Assembly: GCA_035573895.1 (NCBI GenBank)
Contig: DATLZR010000041.1
Location: 1 to 42,619 of the forward strand
Source of the DNA: Blastocatellia bacterium
GTDB taxonomy: Bacteria > Acidobacteriota > Blastocatellia > HR10
Reading direction: 5' to 3'
Length of the DNA: 42,619 nucleotides
Each line of letters begins with the position of its first letter. Position 1 is the first letter of the stretch. The position numbers and the translations under genes are program-made. The notes beneath the pieces are model-generated. The model worked only from the letters and a program-made list of their open reading frames with translations, was not told the origin of the DNA and did no database searches. Below, one piece after another: positions 24,893-42,588 of the stretch.

Positions 24893-25525
24893 AGGTTTCC
24901 GCTGAAGAAGGAAAGGGTGGCGGCTGACTTAAGTCAGCGGTTGTCCCGTGTGGAAAGCACTCCTCATAGAACAGGGGAAGTCATGCCGAGATTTTATTCG
25001 AGGTTATGTAATGAGGGGGGTAAAATGGGGGTCATCACCAACCTCGCGCCCGAGAATCTCTCATATTACGCAAAGCTACGTTCAGGGTCAGCAAGAGGGA
25101 AGCTTTGCCCCAGGTGGTCGTGTTGGATGATTCGTTGGTGGAATTGTGACGTGCGTCTGATAACTTCCAGCATTTTCAAATGTTGACTAAATAGCGGACC
25201 TTTAAGGATGCACTTCCGATTAACAAGCGTCAGGCGATCAGCGAGTTATCGCTAGTTCTTTCGGGTTTTTCAAAAAGTGGGGGAGTACGACTCCCGCTGG
25301 GATTTGATATGCGTGTCTTAAGGAGCTTACGATCGTGTTATGGATCAGATTGGTTCCCAAGATTCCGTGGTTCTGGATTGCGTGGCGGAATCCTACTGGC
25401 CGGAGGAATAATGAAATCTTGGGTTGGGTAATGCCTTGCGTTCGAGGGATAGTAGATGCTACTTGCATTTCAGCAAACGAACGAGTGTGATCTGGGTGCG
25501 GAAGATGAAAAAGCGGGGCAAGGGC
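24893..25525. other. 633-bp region without a recognisable gene, rich in inverted repeats
   Basis: It lies between the S41-like gene and the Nudix gene. Short frames occur on both strands, none with a ribosome-binding site, family motif or protein-like composition. Inverted repeats seen by eye: 24923-24938 (perfect palindrome), 25281-25295 (GGGAGT/ACTCCC, 3-nt loop), 25356-25364 with 25415-25423 (CCCAAGATT/AATCTTGGG), and inside that pair 25362-25367 with 25386-25391. It looks more A+T-rich than its neighbours. It could hold an untranslated RNA or a decayed element; no transposase trace is clear. Confidence 0.5.
24923..24938. other. Perfect 16-bp palindrome downstream of the S41-like gene
   Basis: GCTGACTTAAGTCAGC reads the same on both strands and begins 31 bp after the stop codon. 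As RNA it forms a 6-bp stem with a TTAA loop but no U-run follows. It may be a weak terminator hairpin or a dimeric-protein site. Confidence 0.4.
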
Positions 25526-26008
25526 ATGGCGACAAAGAAAAGGAGCGCGGGGTTACTTCCTTTCCGGAAAGTTTCTGGGACCATTGAGGTACTGTTGGTT
25601 CATCCTGGGGGTCCGTTCTGGGTGAAGAAGGACGAAGGCGCGTGGTCCATTCCCAAGGGTGAGATTGAAGGTAATGAGGACCCTCAGGTTGCAGCAAGGC
25701 GTGAGTTCGAAGAGGAGGTAGGGGGTATGGTCGTCGGAGACATGATCGCGTTGGAACCGGTCCGCCTGCCGGGAGGAAAACTGGTTTATGCCTGGGCTGT
25801 CGAAATGGATTTGGAGCCCTCGAGAGTCAAGAGCAACACCTTCACGATGGAATGGCCACCGAAGTCTGGAAAGATAGCAGAATTTCCCGAGATAGACAGG
25901 GCCGAATGGTTCACGCTCGATGTTGCTCGGCGGAAAATCGTAAAAGGTCAGGTTAGTTTCCTTGACCAGCTGGAAAGGATACTCATAGGGGGAAGGGGAA
26001 ACCTGTAG
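25526..26008 (+). CDS. Nudix hydrolase
   Basis: 160 residues from ATG 25526. The full Nudix box G-x5-E-x7-R-E-F-x-E-E-x-G is at residues 45-66. The N-terminal SAGLLPFRK and EVLLVHPGGPFWVKKDEGAWSIPKG match a family of small MutT-like proteins often annotated as NTP pyrophosphohydrolases. Such enzymes cleave nucleoside diphosphates linked to another group; the substrate cannot be read. ATG 25505 also lies in frame with GGAAG next to it, and the frame opens to 25424, but 25526 gives the family N-terminus (M-x-K-K-R-SAG). It converges with lpxK, with 72 bp between them. Confidence 0.9.
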   Translation: MATKKRSAGLLPFRKVSGTIEVLLVHPGGPFWVKKDEGAWSIPKGEIEGNEDPQVAARREFEEEVGGMVVGDMIALEPVRLPGGKLVYAWAVEMDLEPSRVKSNTFTMEWPPKSGKIAEFPEIDRAEWFTLDVARRKIVKGQVSFLDQLERILIGGRGNL

Positions 26009-35478: not shown

Positions 35479-37851
35479 TCAACTTCGGAGGCGAAAGAGC
35501 GCATAGAGTCCCCCTGCGCCGAGCAATCCACAGGGAGCCCAGGCTGCCACCGCCGGAGAGAAGTAGCCGTACTTCCCCATCTGGGAGAAAATGTCCAGTA
35601 AGAGCCAGTAAGTGAGGCCGAGACCGATACCCAGGCCCACGGCTTGGAGGGCACCATGCCGACCCGTGGCAATGCCGAAGGGAATCCCGAAAAGGCCCAT
35701 GACAAGACATGCAACTGCCAGTGCGCTCTTGCGGTGAAGGGTAACTTCAAGCTCAGTGGTATCGGTACCTGTTTGAGCGAGATAGCGAATATAGCGGGTC
35801 AGTTGTGAGATTGTCAGAGCGTCGGGCTTGAGCGGCTCCCGGGTGAAGTACTCGGGTTGCTCCGGCAGCCGCAAGGCGAGCGAGGAGAACGATTGCTGAG
35901 AGGTTACGTGGCTTCCGTCAAATTGCCAGCGCCGCCCTTCGGAGAAAATCCATTGTTGTGACTCTCTATCCCAGCGGGCAGATCGGGCCTCAATTCGCGC
36001 GCGGGGAGCGAAGGTGAGCGGATCGAGTTCAACGATAAAGGGGAAATCAAGGCGCTGAGCCCACCGGTCGAACGAGCGGAAGTGATAGACGCGATATGTC
36101 GTCGGGGGGACCAGATCGGTCTGCTGCCAGGGTTCGGCGGACATGATCCAGGAACTTCCTGCAGGAGCTAGTTCTACATGCTGCGGCGAGCGACCCTGCT
36201 TGATGTAAAATCGCAGCGCATCCTGTCGGGCATAAGCCCGTGGGAGGAAGGAATTCTCTCCAAGAAAAACAGCTGCCGTGAGAAGGCAGCAGATCGCGAT
36301 GACCGGTGCCGTGGTGCGGTAGATCGAGATCCCTGATGCTTTAAAAGCCACCAGCTCGGATGTTCGACTGAGTAGGCTGAAGCACACCATCGTTGCCAGG
36401 AGCGCCGCAGGAGGCAGTAAATACACCCCGACGACAGGGGTGAGATAGAGACAGTATTCGGCCACGATATGGGCCGGGATGCGATGGGCGATAATATCTG
36501 AGGCCAGCTCAAAGAGCGTGAAAACGAGAAAGAGCACCCATAGACCGACCAGTGCGGGAAGAAGAGACGAGAGAAACCTCCCGGCGAGGTAACGATCGAG
36601 AATGAGAGGAGCCGCTCGGGGAGGCCCTTGTACGGAGTGGGGGAGAGGTGCCCTGCGCGACAGCCGAAAGGAGAGGTGTTGGACCCTGGAGCGCAACTCG
36701 CCAATTATCTCGACCAGACGAATGAGAACTCCCGGAAGCACGTCACCGCGCCGATAGACTCTGGTTGCCAGGGCGAGGAAAATTCCATTCGCCATCCAGA
36801 GACCGAGGGCCGGTGGGAGCGTGCCCGCTCGTGATAGATTCTCGCCAGCAAGCAGCAGGAGATAGTAAACGCAAGCAAGAAGCAAGGCCGTCGTCAACCC
36901 GGCTCCGCGCGTCATCCGTCGCAGTCTCAACCCAAGGACCGAGCCCAGAAGACCGAAGATCACCGGTGAGAGCGACAACGCGAGTCGTTTATGAAGTTCA
37001 ATCTGCCGACGCTGAGACAGTGCCGGATCTTCTTTTTGGGGACGGAGCAGCTCTCCCAGGGTCATCTGTTGGAGGCGGGTTCGAACTGACGGCGGTTGCC
37101 CGCTACTCCTTATGGCCTCACGGGATTTCGCATCGAATCGGAGAAAGAGACGGTCGAATGTCTCGATCTCGTACTGCTCATGCCCGTTCTCCAGCGTCCG
37201 CCGGTGGATCATACCATCCTCCAGCCTGAGCAACGACGTCTCAGGGACGTCACCAAGCTGGAGAATACCCGTCTTTGCTGTGATCAGAAGCGGAGAAGAT
37301 TCGGAACCCTCCCGCATGATGAGAAGAAGGCGGCTCCATCGGTCAGAACGGCGGTCAATATCCCCGATGTAGAGGACCTTGTTGACGAAGCGATCGTCGA
37401 AAACGCGCGCCTTCATCTGAGTTCGCAGTCCCTGGACCAACAGCTCAGCCCGAATACGCTGGAATTGGCGGTAGGATCGGGGCAAGACCTCTCCGAGGAG
37501 TATCAGAAGTATGAGCGACAGCAACCCACCGAGCAGGATCAATGGAAGAACGATCCGGCTTCGGCTGACGCCCGCTGCGAAAAGAGCTGTCGTCTCGTGA
37601 TCGGCCGTCATTCGACCAAGACCCGTCATCACTCCCACCAGCAGAGAAAGAGGGATCGTAATGACCAACACGCGGGGTACGAGCGAGGCTAACAGCGTAC
37701 GGATCATCCCCGGAGGAACGTTCCGCTTGATGAATAACTCGCCGAAATCAGCGATCTGGGCAGCAAGCAGAATGGCCATTGAGATGATGACTGCCAGAAT
37801 GAGGTACGACGTGACCTCCCGGAGGATCGAACGGTCAATGAGGCGAAGCAT
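35479..37851 (-). CDS. LptF-LptG fusion, LPS export permease
   Basis: 790 residues carrying two YjgP/YjgQ permeases in one chain. Half one (1-365) starts MLRLIDRSILREVTSYLILAV and has three N-terminal helices, a periplasmic beta-rich domain (about 135-285) and three more helices. Residues 366-415 form a basic linker. Half two (416-790) repeats the plan from APLILDRYLAGRFLSSLLPAL to the end. In most bacteria LptF and LptG are separate and pair with the LptB ATPase to pull LPS from the inner membrane. The first half may be LptF-like and the second LptG-like, judged by order only. It ends the operon behind the lipB fusion (7-bp gap). Confidence 0.9.
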   Translation of the reverse strand: MLRLIDRSILREVTSYLILAVIISMAILLAAQIADFGELFIKRNVPPGMIRTLLASLVPRVLVITIPLSLLVGVMTGLGRMTADHETTALFAAGVSRSRIVLPLILLGGLLSLILLILLGEVLPRSYRQFQRIRAELLVQGLRTQMKARVFDDRFVNKVLYIGDIDRRSDRWSRLLLIMREGSESSPLLITAKTGILQLGDVPETSLLRLEDGMIHRRTLENGHEQYEIETFDRLFLRFDAKSREAIRSSGQPPSVRTRLQQMTLGELLRPQKEDPALSQRRQIELHKRLALSLSPVIFGLLGSVLGLRLRRMTRGAGLTTALLLACVYYLLLLAGENLSRAGTLPPALGLWMANGIFLALATRVYRRGDVLPGVLIRLVEIIGELRSRVQHLSFRLSRRAPLPHSVQGPPRAAPLILDRYLAGRFLSSLLPALVGLWVLFLVFTLFELASDIIAHRIPAHIVAEYCLYLTPVVGVYLLPPAALLATMVCFSLLSRTSELVAFKASGISIYRTTAPVIAICCLLTAAVFLGENSFLPRAYARQDALRFYIKQGRSPQHVELAPAGSSWIMSAEPWQQTDLVPPTTYRVYHFRSFDRWAQRLDFPFIVELDPLTFAPRARIEARSARWDRESQQWIFSEGRRWQFDGSHVTSQQSFSSLALRLPEQPEYFTREPLKPDALTISQLTRYIRYLAQTGTDTTELEVTLHRKSALAVACLVMGLFGIPFGIATGRHGALQAVGLGIGLGLTYWLLLDIFSQMGKYGYFSPAVAAWAPCGLLGAGGLYALFRLRS

Positions 37852-37858
37852 AGCAGGG

Positions 37859-39022
37859 CTAAAGGTCGGCTCCCGTGCGGAGACGCTTGAGGACGGAAAG
37901 CTGGTTGAGCGTCTGTTCGGCGAGCTTCAGCGCTCGTCGCGTTCCCGCCCATACCACGCGCGTGAGGGCCTGGTCGTAGGGTACAAACTCGTACTCGGTG
38001 TGTTCCCGAGGATCAAGCTCGATTTTTCCTGGCTCACCCGGGAGCTCCGCCGCAAACGTGTGCTCGCGGACGATAACCGGTTGGGGAAGTGACAAATCCG
38101 GCAGAAGTTCTGGTGCAATGGCAAAAGCATGAATGTAGGGCAGCCGATGAAGGGGCGGGCACTGGTCCTTCAGGCCGGTTTCTTCGGCAACTTCACGGAT
38201 GGCGGCTGCCGGTGGCGATTCCCCCGGTTCAATGAATCCGGTCACTGGTTGCCAGAATCCTCCCGCTTCAGCACGCCGTTTGAAAAGAAGATAACGGTTA
38301 TCCGGCAGCGAGCGAAGGATTACCATGACAGATTCACGATCAATCGGTTTCACGAAGGGCCTACGATTGAATACCTGGCCGAAGTGGCCGATAAGAGCTG
38401 ACTCGACCTGGTCGAAGGAGACGTGCTGCCCGCAGACCCTTTCCATCGAGGTCATGCGAACTCCGCTCAGCCCGCAGGGGACAATCAGGTCAAAGGGTGA
38501 AAGGTCATTGGCAACATTCAGAGCCAAACCGTGTCGCGTGATCCAGCGGCTGAGGTGAACTCCGATGGAGGCGATTTTTTCTCCTCGGACCCAGACGCCC
38601 GTTCGACCTGCCTCTCGATGGGCCTCGATACCAAAATCCGCCAATGTGCGGATGATGACCTCTTCCAATAAGCGCAGATAATGATGGACGTCCCGCTCCG
38701 CGCCCCGAAGTTGGAGGATGGGATAGGCAACGAGCTGACCCGGCCCGTGGTATGTTACAGCTCCCCCCCGATCCGTTTGAACTACATCTATCCCGAGTTC
38801 GCGCAGCCTCTCAAGTGGACAGAGAATCTGCCGGGATGCCTTCTGAGCGGCACTTCTGCCCACTGTGATCACCGGAGGATGCTCAAGGAGCAGGATTGTA
38901 TCGGGTACGGCTCCACGCTGACGCTCCTGTTCGACAAGCCGTTGAATGAGTAAACCGTCTTCGTACTCAACCAACCCCAGTCTCCGAACAGCCAGAAGAC
39001 CGTCTTCATCCCACATGCCCAC
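37859..39022 (-). CDS. LipB octanoyltransferase fused to a Nudix hydrolase
   Basis: 387 residues. Residues 1-220 are LipB: LEHPPVITVGRSA, then TDRGGAVTYHGPGQLVAYPIL, with the conserved Lys 149 (RGEKIASIGV) and Cys 183 (LIVPCGL) of the cysteine/lysine acyltransferase. LipB moves octanoyl groups from acyl carrier protein to lipoyl domains. Residues 225-387 are a Nudix domain with an intact box (residues 262-284) and resemble the NudB/dATP pyrophosphohydrolase branch. The Nudix substrate is unknown. The start is GTG 39022 with GGGAG upstream (ATG 39016 is an alternative). It sits 2 bp behind the lipoylated E2 gene, whose product is a LipB client. Confidence 0.92.
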   Translation of the reverse strand: MGMWDEDGLLAVRRLGLVEYEDGLLIQRLVEQERQRGAVPDTILLLEHPPVITVGRSAAQKASRQILCPLERLRELGIDVVQTDRGGAVTYHGPGQLVAYPILQLRGAERDVHHYLRLLEEVIIRTLADFGIEAHREAGRTGVWVRGEKIASIGVHLSRWITRHGLALNVANDLSPFDLIVPCGLSGVRMTSMERVCGQHVSFDQVESALIGHFGQVFNRRPFVKPIDRESVMVILRSLPDNRYLLFKRRAEAGGFWQPVTGFIEPGESPPAAAIREVAEETGLKDQCPPLHRLPYIHAFAIAPELLPDLSLPQPVIVREHTFAAELPGEPGKIELDPREHTEYEFVPYDQALTRVVWAGTRRALKLAEQTLNQLSVLKRLRTGADL

Positions 39023-39024
39023 GA

Positions 39025-40407
39025 TTACTCCCGGCTGATGTCGAAAGTCTCCAGGAAGCGCTTGATATGAGACATAAACTGGTCGGCAACAGCTCCATCA
39101 ATGAGGCGGTGATCAAACGTCAGCGCAAAGTACGCCGTGGGACGAATGGCAAGAGCATCGCCCCTGTCCGTCTCGATAACTACAGGACGCTTGGCAATCT
39201 GACCAACACCGAGGATGGCGACTTGAGGCTGGTTAATGATGGGAGTTCCGAAAAGCGAGCCGAAAAGACCGGGATTGGTGATGGTGAATGTTCCTCCTTG
39301 AACGTCCTCCGGTTTGAGTTGCTTAGCTCGGGCTCGTGTGGCGAGATCGGAAATGGCTTTGGCCAAGCCCACGAGACTTTTTTCATCCGCGTTTTTGATG
39401 ACGGGAACGATCAGTCCCCAATCCAGAGCGACGGCGATGCCGATGTTGATGTCCTTTCGATAGATGATCTTGTCCTCGGCGACCGATGCGTTGAGAATGG
39501 GGAAGGCCTTGAGCGCGTCAACGGTGGCGCGGGTGATAAACGGGAGGTAGGTTAGATGAATCCCGTGTCGCTTCTGGAATTCCTCGCGCAACTGGCGGCG
39601 AAGCTCTTCGACCCGGGTCATGTCAATCTCAAAGACCGTCGTCACGTGGGCTGAGGTGCGCTGGCTCAGGATCATGTGCTCGGCGATCTTTTTGCGCATG
39701 ACGGTCATGGGAACGACCTCGACGCGCTCACCTTCAAAGGTCACCCCGCTCACAGCAGGCCGCTCAGGCTCGATAGGTTCGGCGGGAACTGGGCTGACAG
39801 AAGCCCTCCGGTTTTCGATGTAGCTCAAGACATCTCGTTTGGTAATGCGGCCCCCCATTCCCGTTCCCTGGATGTGCGAGAGATCAATGTTATACTCTCG
39901 TGCGAGTTTGCGGACCACAGGAGAGGCACGCAACCCAGGCGCAGAAACACCAACCGGAGCTGGTTGTTCCGGGACGGAAATTGTAATTGGCTTTTTCTGC
40001 TTCTCCCAGGGATAAGGTTCAAGCGTGAGCCTGCGCTCTGGTGTTTCTCGTTTGGGCGGCGTTGCTGACAGGGAAGGGGACGAGGGCAACGTAGCGGCGG
40101 TATGCGTGCTTGGCTCAGGTCTCGGTATCGAAGAAGCAGTAGGGGGACCTGCTGCTGATGACACCTCAGCTTCCGTCTCCAGTCTGGCCACGACTGTCTT
40201 GATTGGGACGGTTTCTCCCTCTGCCACGAGAATCTCCGCCAGAATCCCTTCCGCCGGCGATGGGATCTCCGCGTCGACTTTGTCTGTGGAGATCTCAAAT
40301 AGCGGTTCGTCCCGCTTTACCCGTTCGCCGGGTTTCTTGAACCACTTCGTAATGGTTCCTTCCGCGATACTTTCCCCCATCTGGGGCATGATGACGTCTA
40401 CTCTCAC
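39025..40407 (-). CDS. 2-Oxoacid dehydrogenase E2 component (dihydrolipoamide acyltransferase)
   Basis: 460 residues. The lipoyl domain carries the lipoylated lysine in ISTDKVDAEIPSP (Lys 43). A Pro/Ala/Ser-rich linker follows, then the E3/E1-binding peripheral domain (RASPVVRKLAREYNIDLSHIQGTGMGGRITKRDVLSYI) and the acyltransferase domain with HRLIDG (His 433, Asp 437). It passes an acyl group from lipoate to CoA. The sequence fits pyruvate or branched-chain complexes and cannot decide between them. The start is GTG 40407 with GGAGGGG upstream. A gap of 108 bp separates it from E1beta, which is the loosest joint in the operon. Confidence 0.94.
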   Translation of the reverse strand: MRVDVIMPQMGESIAEGTITKWFKKPGERVKRDEPLFEISTDKVDAEIPSPAEGILAEILVAEGETVPIKTVVARLETEAEVSSAAGPPTASSIPRPEPSTHTAATLPSSPSLSATPPKRETPERRLTLEPYPWEKQKKPITISVPEQPAPVGVSAPGLRASPVVRKLAREYNIDLSHIQGTGMGGRITKRDVLSYIENRRASVSPVPAEPIEPERPAVSGVTFEGERVEVVPMTVMRKKIAEHMILSQRTSAHVTTVFEIDMTRVEELRRQLREEFQKRHGIHLTYLPFITRATVDALKAFPILNASVAEDKIIYRKDINIGIAVALDWGLIVPVIKNADEKSLVGLAKAISDLATRARAKQLKPEDVQGGTFTITNPGLFGSLFGTPIINQPQVAILGVGQIAKRPVVIETDRGDALAIRPTAYFALTFDHRLIDGAVADQFMSHIKRFLETFDISRE

Positions 40408-40515: not shown

Positions 40516-41490
40516 TCAGTAGAGCGCCAGCCACCGGGCTGCCGCCACGATTTCCTCCACCTGAGGAAGGAAGAACTCCTCCAACGGAGGGCTGTACGGA
40601 ACGGGAGTATCCGGAGCGGTGACGCGGAGAATAGGGCCATCAAGATACTCGAATACGCGCTCCGTGATGCGTAGGGCAATCTCTCCAGCAATGCCGCCGG
40701 TTCGTGTGTCTTCATGGACAATGAGAACCTTTCCCGTCTTCGCTGCCGATGACAGGATGGTTTCGTCATCCAAAGGAAGGAGCGTTCTGAGATCAATGAC
40801 TTCTGCATCTATTCCCTCAGCAGCAAGCTGATGGGCCGCGTCCAATGATTTGTGGAGCATCCAGCCGTAGCTGATGATCGTCAGGTCCTTTCCCGGCCTC
40901 CGAATCGCCGCTTTACCGATCGGGACGATATAGTCCTCTTCGGGAACCTCTTCTTTGATCCTTCGGTAGAGGTATTTGTGCTCAAAGTAAAGGACGGGAT
41001 CTTCATCCCGGATGGCCGCCTTGATCAAACCCTTTGCATCATACGCCGTCGCCGGTTCAACAATCTTCAGGCCAGGCGTATGGAAGAAATAGGCTTCCAC
41101 GTTCTGCGAGTGAAAGGGACCCCCATGGACGCCACCACCGCAGGGACCGCGGACAACGATGGGAACACCAGCACCCCAACGGTAGCGTGACTTCGCCGCC
41201 ATGTTGGTAATCTGATCGAAGGCGCAGGAAATAAAGTCAATGAATTGCATCTCCGCAACAGGACGCATTCCGAGAAGAGCTGCGCCAATGGCAGCTCCGA
41301 CGATGGCAGCTTCCGAGATGGGCGTGTCTATGACCCGTTCCTCTCCAAAATGCTCAAGGAATCCCTCGGTCACCTTGAACGCACCACCGTAGACCCCAAT
41401 ATCCTCGCCGAGGAGAAATACCCGTTCGTCCCGTTCCATCTCTTCCCATAGCCCTTGACGAATCGCTTCCAGATACGTGAGAACCGCCAT
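40516..41490 (-). CDS. 2-Oxoacid dehydrogenase E1 component, beta subunit
   Basis: 324 residues. It forms the alpha2beta2 E1 with the upstream gene product and builds the thiamine-diphosphate site. LTYLEAIRQGLWEEMERDERVFLLGEDIGVYGGAFKVTEGF and PISEAAIVGAAIGAALLGMRPVAEMQFIDF are standard for the PdhB/BkdA2 family, and the C-terminal half has VIDLRTLLPLDDETI and the GGIAGEIALRI region. AGGAGGA overlaps the end of the E1alpha gene, so the pair is translationally coupled. Pyruvate and branched-chain 2-oxoacids are both possible substrates. Confidence 0.95.
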   Translation of the reverse strand: MAVLTYLEAIRQGLWEEMERDERVFLLGEDIGVYGGAFKVTEGFLEHFGEERVIDTPISEAAIVGAAIGAALLGMRPVAEMQFIDFISCAFDQITNMAAKSRYRWGAGVPIVVRGPCGGGVHGGPFHSQNVEAYFFHTPGLKIVEPATAYDAKGLIKAAIRDEDPVLYFEHKYLYRRIKEEVPEEDYIVPIGKAAIRRPGKDLTIISYGWMLHKSLDAAHQLAAEGIDAEVIDLRTLLPLDDETILSSAAKTGKVLIVHEDTRTGGIAGEIALRITERVFEYLDGPILRVTAPDTPVPYSPPLEEFFLPQVEEIVAAARWLALY

Positions 41491-41493
41491 CAG

Positions 41494-42549
41494 TTATGTC
41501 CTCCGGTATGTTGGTTCGCGTTCAAGCGATGGGGGAAAAGAACCAACCCCCTCATAGTAAACATCCTGGAGTGCGATTGAGGGATCAGGCATCGGGGACT
41601 GTTCGGCGTACCGGAGGTCGTGCTCCACCTCGGCGTCAATTCGTGAGTCAATCCCAGCGAGATCATCTTCTGAAGCCAAATTGTTCTCCCTGAGATAGCG
41701 GACGAGGCGATCAATGGGATCCTTTTGCCGCCAGTGCTCGAAAAGTTCGGCCGGCACATACCGGGCATCGTCGTGCTCGGCATGACCGCGCATGCGGAAT
41801 GTCTTGACCTCCAGAAGTGTTGGACCAAGTCCCTGGCGCGCCCTTTCAACGGCTCGGCGCGTTGCTGCGTAAACAGCCTCTACATCATTGCCATCAACAG
41901 TCTCGCCGAAGATACCGTAACCGATGGCCCGATCAGCGATATTCTCGATGGCCATTTGCTTGTGCTTGGGCGTGGAATACGCGTACCCGTTATCTTCTGC
42001 GACTACAATCAAGGGTAGTTTGAAAACCGCCGCGAAGTTCAGACCCTCGTGGAACACTCCGGTACTCGTTCCACCGTCGCCAATGTAAGTCAGTGCAACC
42101 GATCGGAGGCGTTTCATTTTCGAGGCAAGAGCAATACCAGCCATGACGGGAATGAGGTCCCCAAGGTGGCTGATGGGGGGAATGATCCCCCGTTCCACAC
42201 TGCCGAAGTGAACCACTGAATCCTTACCTCGTGTCGGACTCGTCCCCCGCGCCATATATTGCGTGAATATCTCCCAGGGCTTGACGCCACGAACCAGAAG
42301 TGACCCGAGATTGCGAATCATCGGGGCGATGAAGTCTCCGGGTTCAAGGGCATATGCGCTTGCGACGGATTCGCCTTCCTGTCCAAGACTGCGATAAAGC
42401 CCACCGACGATCTTCCCCTGGCGGTAAAGGTGTGTGAGCCTCTCCTCAATCGTTCGGGTGAGTTTCATGTAGTAGTAAATCTCAAGCAGTTGTTCTCTTG
42501 TCAGTATCCCCATGCCTTCTTTGTCCTGTCCTTGGGCGGGATTTGTCAT
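41494..42549 (-). CDS. 2-Oxoacid dehydrogenase E1 component, alpha subunit
   Basis: 351 residues from ATG 42549. The thiamine-diphosphate motif reads YIGDGGTSTGVFHEGLNFAAVFKLPLIVVAEDN, with GDG and the closing Asn that ligate Mg2+ and diphosphate. LTRTIEERLTHLYRQGKIVGGLYRSLGQEGESVASA is the family N-terminal part, and TFRMRGHAEHDDARYVP contains the phosphorylation-loop region of E1alpha. The frame extends to 42588, but that part overlaps the promoter. ATG 42513 (MGILTREQ) is a plausible alternative with AGGA upstream; ATG 42549 has no ribosome-binding site and would be nearly leaderless. First gene of the five-gene operon. Confidence 0.94.
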   Translation of the reverse strand: MTNPAQGQDKEGMGILTREQLLEIYYYMKLTRTIEERLTHLYRQGKIVGGLYRSLGQEGESVASAYALEPGDFIAPMIRNLGSLLVRGVKPWEIFTQYMARGTSPTRGKDSVVHFGSVERGIIPPISHLGDLIPVMAGIALASKMKRLRSVALTYIGDGGTSTGVFHEGLNFAAVFKLPLIVVAEDNGYAYSTPKHKQMAIENIADRAIGYGIFGETVDGNDVEAVYAATRRAVERARQGLGPTLLEVKTFRMRGHAEHDDARYVPAELFEHWRQKDPIDRLVRYLRENNLASEDDLAGIDSRIDAEVEHDLRYAEQSPMPDPSIALQDVYYEGVGSFPPSLEREPTYRRT

Positions 42550-42559
42550 AGGGGCTGAA

Positions 42560-42588
42560 ACTATAGCGGAATTCGATAGAAGGAGCAA
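42560..42588 (-). promoter_or_regulatory. Promoter of the 2-oxoacid dehydrogenase operon
   Basis: Minus strand TTGCTC (42588-42583), 17-nt spacer, TATAGT (42565-42560). The hexamers are identical to those before yggS. Transcription should start about 3-5 nt before ATG 42549, or 40 nt before ATG 42513. Confidence 0.55.

Follow-up and report, generated by a model that had tools for sequence, protein, structure and literature searches.

A LipB octanoyltransferase joined in one gene to a NudB-related Nudix domain in Acidobacteriota

In the 42,619-nucleotide stretch of Blastocatellia DNA analysed here (the window), one gene joins two intact known enzyme families, a LipB octanoyltransferase and a Nudix hydrolase. 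The domain fusion is real, is widely kept within one phylum, the Acidobacteriota, and is apparently undescribed. The joining of two genes strongly hints at a functional link between them, and in the carrier genomes the annotation as LipB conceals a second enzyme. Judged from sequence, the product would, with somewhat better than even probability, be a bifunctional protein consisting of LipB and an active pyrophosphohydrolase which derives from NudB and whose substrate has shifted. In the open-licence literature we found no description of a LipB-Nudix fusion; the accessible portions of PMC10332631 make no mention of Nudix, and those of PMC5389931 mention neither LipB nor lipoyl.

The fusion gene and its operon

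The gene, its domains and its neighbours in the window are as follows.

37859-39022, minus strand: lipB-nudix fusion gene, 387 aa (open reading frame and domain profiles; fusion carried by 64 genomes)
38381-38959, minus strand: LipB octanoyltransferase domain, residues 22-214 (PF21948, LplA-B_cat, 1.1e-49)
37949-38335, minus strand: Nudix domain, residues 230-358 by profile span (PF00293, 7.8e-17)
38171-38239, minus strand: complete Nudix box, residues 262-284 (read from the translation)
39025-40407, minus strand: E2 acyltransferase with lipoyl Lys43, the likely substrate of the LipB domain (domain profiles)
40516-41490, minus strand: E1 beta subunit (NF006667, 358.8 bits, cut-off 321)
41494-42588, minus strand: E1 alpha subunit (domain profiles)
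35479-37851, minus strand: LptF and LptG as a single frame, located 3' of the fusion at a distance of 7 bp

The fusion frame starts with GTG, with GGGAG located 5 bases 5' of this start, and contains zero internal stops. Its first half scores 197.7 bits against NF010925 (cut-off 155) and 179.5 bits against TIGR00214 (cut-off 83.55), and Lys149 and Cys183, which we take to be the catalytic residues of the LipB half, are invariant across 39 aligned fusion rows. The second half reaches 62 bits against PF00293 (cut-off 21.1) and carries the full box G262-x5-E268-x7-R276-E277-V-A-E280-E281-T-G283-L284, which places it in the Nudix superfamily. Reading frame and profiles thus bear out the first-pass annotation, which had described LipB and Nudix in one uninterrupted frame with Lys149, Cys183 and a box at residues 262-284. 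In the window genome the fusion is the sole LipB match. Divergent unfused LipBs are present in G006, G008 and G009 (L055:6517-7206, L063:7476-8156), of which G008 and G009 hold them in addition to the fusion. The window's contig encodes a further Nudix protein, separate from the fusion and 194 aa long, at 25424-26008 (plus strand).

An AlphaFold2 model of residues 220-387 has a pLDDT of 90, and the full-length model a pLDDT of 88.5 and a pTM of 0.86. The latter matches the LipB structure 2qhs best (TM 0.93 by target) and NudB 5u7e at 0.80; the linker is short in the model, with a helix running to residue 217 and the next strands spanning 221-224 and 229-238.

On the minus strand the genes follow each other in the order E1 alpha, E1 beta, E2, fusion, and the E2 stop (39025) is separated from the fusion start (39022) by a 2-base gap; the lipoyl lysine of E2 lies within S-T-D-K-V. 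As the window is an entire contig, the upstream context was read as far as E1 alpha. The earlier placement of the fusion 2 bp behind an E2 gene with lipoyl Lys43, inside a 2-oxoacid dehydrogenase operon, proved correct, and the setting is conserved in relatives: a same-strand upstream E2 is found in 16 of the 64 fused genomes, at a distance of 150 bp or less in 12 (f1, f2, f3, f9, f31). The remaining 48, including all nine f6 and all 37 f29 genomes, show no upstream E2 within the fetched stretch, which in many cases covered only 1.5 kb upstream. A LipA-like gene lies directly 3' of the fusion in G007 and G124, the latter type having homologues in the other four f31 genomes, and in G124 a pyridine-nucleotide-disulphide oxidoreductase (E3-like) is located 5' of the operon. 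Annotated f6 and f29 loci are flanked by genes for an amidase, a Na/H antiporter, an acyl-CoA dehydrogenase and PurE. Hence, the fusion accompanies lipoylation genes in several lineages and resides elsewhere in others.

The loci read from f1, f2 and f3 likewise have LptF-LptG 3' of the fusion; in G007 the LipA-like gene intervenes. The LptF-LptG protein of the window (790 residues) scores above the cut-offs of both TIGR04407 and TIGR04408, and long homologues occur in f1, f2, f3 and f4 loci. An LptFG-like gene adjoins the free-standing NudB of f4 in five of seven loci (L050, L052, L053, L064, L173), while none was seen beside it in the L051 stretch, the sixth locus whose neighbours were read. 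That this neighbour is a free-standing NudB in f4 and LipB-Nudix in f1-f3 is a possible trace of fission.

By analogy with its family, the LipB half would load Cys183 with octanoyl from acyl carrier protein and hand this group on to the lipoyl lysine of the neighbouring E2 (Lys43) and to other lipoyl domains, where LipA would then turn octanoyl into lipoyl. To our knowledge, LipB itself produces no acyl-AMP; the octanoyl it uses derives from ACP, as stated in the accessible part of PMC10332631.

Distribution and origin

A search among the nearest relatives returned matches over both halves in 21 of 98 genomes, counting that of the window; these belong to families f1, f2, f3, f6 and f9. A profile built from the Nudix half (15 rows) matches 59 of 396 Acidobacteriota genomes, and inspection of the frames resolves these into 54 LipB-Nudix fusions (one, in G418, split across two contig ends), four free-standing proteins (G010, G017 and G021 of f4, and G106) and one Nudix-FolP fusion (G013). 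Altogether the fusion is found in 64 genomes of eight families (f29 37, f6 9, f1 6, f31 5, f9 3, f2 2, f3 1, f45 1), which describes, for this phylum, the phylogenetic spread that the first-pass annotation had wanted established. A scan of 84,980 species with narrow peptide patterns taken from the fusion protein yielded one fused locus, L031 (G009, a member of the window's order). Set against the 54 fused genomes among the 396 are seven with another architecture (G010, G012, G013, G016, G017, G021, G106); two, G012 and G016, have both, where about one is expected by chance, so that the overlap is uninformative.

An artefact of assembly or gene calling is ruled out and in our view virtually impossible, as the fusion recurs on independent contigs in all these genomes and families, several of them one-contig genomes; no support for an artefact was found. 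The corresponding caveat of the first-pass annotation, an assembly error joining what homologues keep as separate genes, fails against the 21 of 98 and 54 of 396 genomes, which rule out chance as well.

Three label changes between fused and unfused are required by a quick tree with 91 rows. Removal of the outgroups, one duplicate, seven Bacillota rows and the f29 near-copies left 59 rows, for which a careful tree requires two changes. The careful tree does not reject a single fusion clade (p-AU 0.365), and a single origin is therefore compatible with these weakly resolved trees. In the LipB tree, which is poorly rooted, fused and unfused LipBs are intermixed, which early fusion with later loss fits as well as repeated gain. 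Around the free-standing Bacillota relatives no pattern was seen in gene positions, which alone were compared. Tentatively, and with more doubt than confidence, we propose that LipB acquired an old NudB copy in an ancestor shared by much of the Acidobacteriota and that this copy gained a new substrate, so that one two-headed enzyme would couple protein lipoylation to nucleotide or pterin polyphosphate turnover. If true, this would be a link between lipoate and nucleotide metabolism not known before.

The Nudix half: relatives, pocket and constraint

Among solved structures, E. coli NudB gives the best profile match to the Nudix half (8.6e-21), followed by a next match at 1.7e-16 and by Ap4A hydrolases at 2e-12. 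A Foldseek search with the Nudix model likewise ranks NudB first, while VIA-align does not separate NudB from Ap4A hydrolases or from an uncharacterised Nudix protein of Listeria (Z 17.4-18.2). This proximity to NudB and Ap4A hydrolases in sequence and predicted fold favours a nucleoside or pterin polyphosphate as probable substrate over CoA or acyl-AMP. Dihydroneopterin triphosphate, the substrate of NudB and one of the compounds that the first-pass annotation proposed to assay, appears to be a good candidate, yet not the favoured one. Of the roles suggested in that annotation, clearance of an acyl-nucleotide or dephospho-CoA by-product, sensing of a nucleotide or simple co-expression, none is singled out by the present data. 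The domain misses the NudB cut-off (NF006961, 103 bits) with 71.5 bits for the protein and 73.9 in the genome search, and all fused domains listed lie below it. Lys7 and Tyr91 of E. coli NudB are found in none of 62 distinct fused domains (2 and 4 gaps, respectively), where the alignment of Lys7, close to the LipB/Nudix junction, is uncertain; in the free-standing NudB proteins of f4, they are kept in 7/7 and 6/7. Pro9 and the Y-x-P-G-V-T loop before E100 are gone from the fused domains as well, which mostly have P-x-[FI]-x-x-E in place of the loop. According to the accessible part of PMC5526541, Lys7 is unique among close homologues and Tyr91 sits at the substrate in a docking model; these roles stem from crystal contacts and docking of E. 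coli NudB rather than from work on the fused family.

The catalytic residues, in contrast to this pocket, are largely kept. The full Nudix box is present in 59 of the 62 domains, and in E. coli NudB numbering R29, W36, E47, E100 and H118 are found in all 62, E56, E60 and T40 in 61, E59 in 60, E117 in 59 and Q37 in 57. The window copy keeps all metal ligands (E56, E60, E117). The fused domain of G202 deviates at the box glycine, E117 is replaced by Gln in G008 and G009, and G045 and G051 (L020, L021) have lost the metal-binding Glu of the box while retaining the domain, which indicates that Nudix activity is dispensable in those two genomes. Two additional residues in the box (G-x7-E) occur in f9 and two f6 genomes (L010, L011, L012, L013, L015). 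Over 17 close pairs, dN/dS ranges from 0.02 to 0.36 for the Nudix half and from 0.05 to 0.23 for the LipB half; as all values lie below 0.37, both halves are under purifying selection. The Nudix value exceeds that of LipB in 13 of the 17 pairs, so that the Nudix half is constrained, but less tightly.

The two genomes without metal ligands suggest a different reading, in which the Nudix half would act as a folded module without enzyme activity, sensing nucleotides or stabilising LipB, and be retained by fusion. The full-length pTM of 0.86 fits a fixed domain arrangement, and non-catalytic Nudix domains typically reside within multidomain proteins (PMC5389931, part of the text). However, the whole catalytic box in 59 of 62 distinct domains renders such a module very improbable. 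The operon position, in turn, would suit a Nudix half that clears damaged cofactors which would otherwise poison E1-E3, given that Nudix-type diphosphates include thiamin diphosphate, CoA, FAD and NAD. There is a precedent in Tnr3, a fusion of Nudix with a thiamin gene through which a pyrophosphatase was discovered (a table in the accessible part of PMC4921024). We nevertheless regard clearance as improbable, since profile and fold place the domain nearer to NudB and Ap4A hydrolases than to NADH or CoA families, and the operon link is unseen in f6 and f29 loci.

Under the preferred reading of an active enzyme with shifted substrate, the Nudix half would descend from NudB (dihydroneopterin-triphosphate diphosphatase) and act as a Mg-dependent pyrophosphohydrolase, presumably cutting a nucleoside or pterin polyphosphate. 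With Lys7, Tyr91 and the Y-x-P-G-V-T loop lost, its remodelled pocket would no longer, or not only, have dihydroneopterin triphosphate as main substrate. The likeliest reason for the tie to LipB would be the co-supply or protection of a cofactor used together with lipoylated complexes.

The folate question and comparison with known systems

The main rival to a shifted substrate is a Nudix half that still serves the folate pathway as dihydroneopterin-triphosphate diphosphatase, the fusion co-supplying lipoyl groups and folate, two cofactors brought together in the glycine cleavage system. NudB is indeed the closest known relative, and in the same class four genomes (G012, G013, G016, G048) carry a NudB-like Nudix domain N-terminal to FolP (dihydropteroate synthase), at the following loci.

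L046:5030-6400, Nudix-FolP
L047:915-2360, Nudix-FolP
L048:4746-6089, Nudix-FolP
L049:4963-6315, Nudix-FolP

Tyr91 is retained in all four domains, and the fusion of related Nudix domains to FolP points to pterins; free-standing relatives above the NudB cut-off occur in the same class too (G010, G017). The window genome adds to this. It has FolE, FolK and FolP, whereas neither FolB nor a PTPS-III motif was found in it; its PTPS motif is CRNLHGH, type I only, in a gene that runs to the contig end. No known enzyme thus accounts for the steps from FolE to FolK, and besides the fusion the genome has no NudB-like protein, the next match scoring 22.8 bits. For the window's order (f1, f2, f3), this gap and the single NudB-like protein speak in favour of a folate function. 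Furthermore, G006 has an unfused LipB only and no FolP, FolK or PTPS was found in it, while its sister genus has the fusion and the pathway. Within the window's order, G000, G002, G007 and G008 have FolE, lack FolB and show PTPS of type I only.

Against a folate role stand the score of 71.5 versus 103 bits and the loss of Lys7, Tyr91 and the loop, and also the rest of the phylum. The PTPS-III motif (ExxHGH) is present in 14 of the 19 fused genomes typed, among which the window's order alone is without both FolB and this motif; PTPS-III was called from the six-letter motif alone, by motif rules from the accessible part of PMC5041015. Dihydroneopterin triphosphate itself is reported as a substrate of PTPS-III (PMC4674097, PMC5041015, each in part), which would make NudB needless or competing where the motif is present and suggests that folate synthesis can bypass NudB in those 14. 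Some archaeal PTPS-III may use the monophosphate (PMC5041015, same part), which, if so, would reopen the bypass argument. FolK is found in 370 of the 396 phylum genomes and the NudB-like domain in 59, so the folate pathway runs without such a domain; among the 54 fused genomes of the 396, G261 and G351 lack a FolK match. An association with folate genes by presence and absence was dropped, as FolK in 370 of 396 genomes cannot discriminate. In addition, G012 and G016 hold LipB-Nudix as well as Nudix-FolP, and the neighbours of the fusion are lipoylation genes, with no folate genes among them. On the PTPS-III and FolK counts, we consider a conserved folate role rather unlikely and rate a shifted substrate higher. 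The fusion would either fill a folate-pathway hole in lineages without FolB and the PTPS-III motif, or reveal a new connection of lipoylation to the turnover of nucleotides.

Compared to known systems, the window protein agrees with LipB (NF010925, TIGR00214; PDB 2qhs) in scoring above the cut-offs, in Lys149 and Cys183 and in fold, but adds a C-terminal Nudix domain to what the solved LipBs 2qhs and 1w66 (about 210-237 residues) contain. With NudB (NF006961; 2o1c, 5u7e) the fused domains mostly share R29, W36, Q37, T40, E56, E59, E60, E100, E117 and H118, whereas they score below the cut-off and are without Lys7, Pro9, Tyr91 and the loop before E100, and the window Nudix domain is joined to LipB in a lipoylation operon. 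The asymmetric Ap4A hydrolases (4ijx, 1ktg, 3i7u) tie with NudB in fold (Z 17.4-17.7), but are more distant in sequence (2e-12 versus 8.6e-21). Like Nudix-FolP, LipB-Nudix combines a related Nudix domain with an enzyme of cofactor synthesis; it differs in its partner, in having the Nudix domain C-terminal instead of N-terminal, and in being without the Tyr91 that Nudix-FolP keeps in 4/4.
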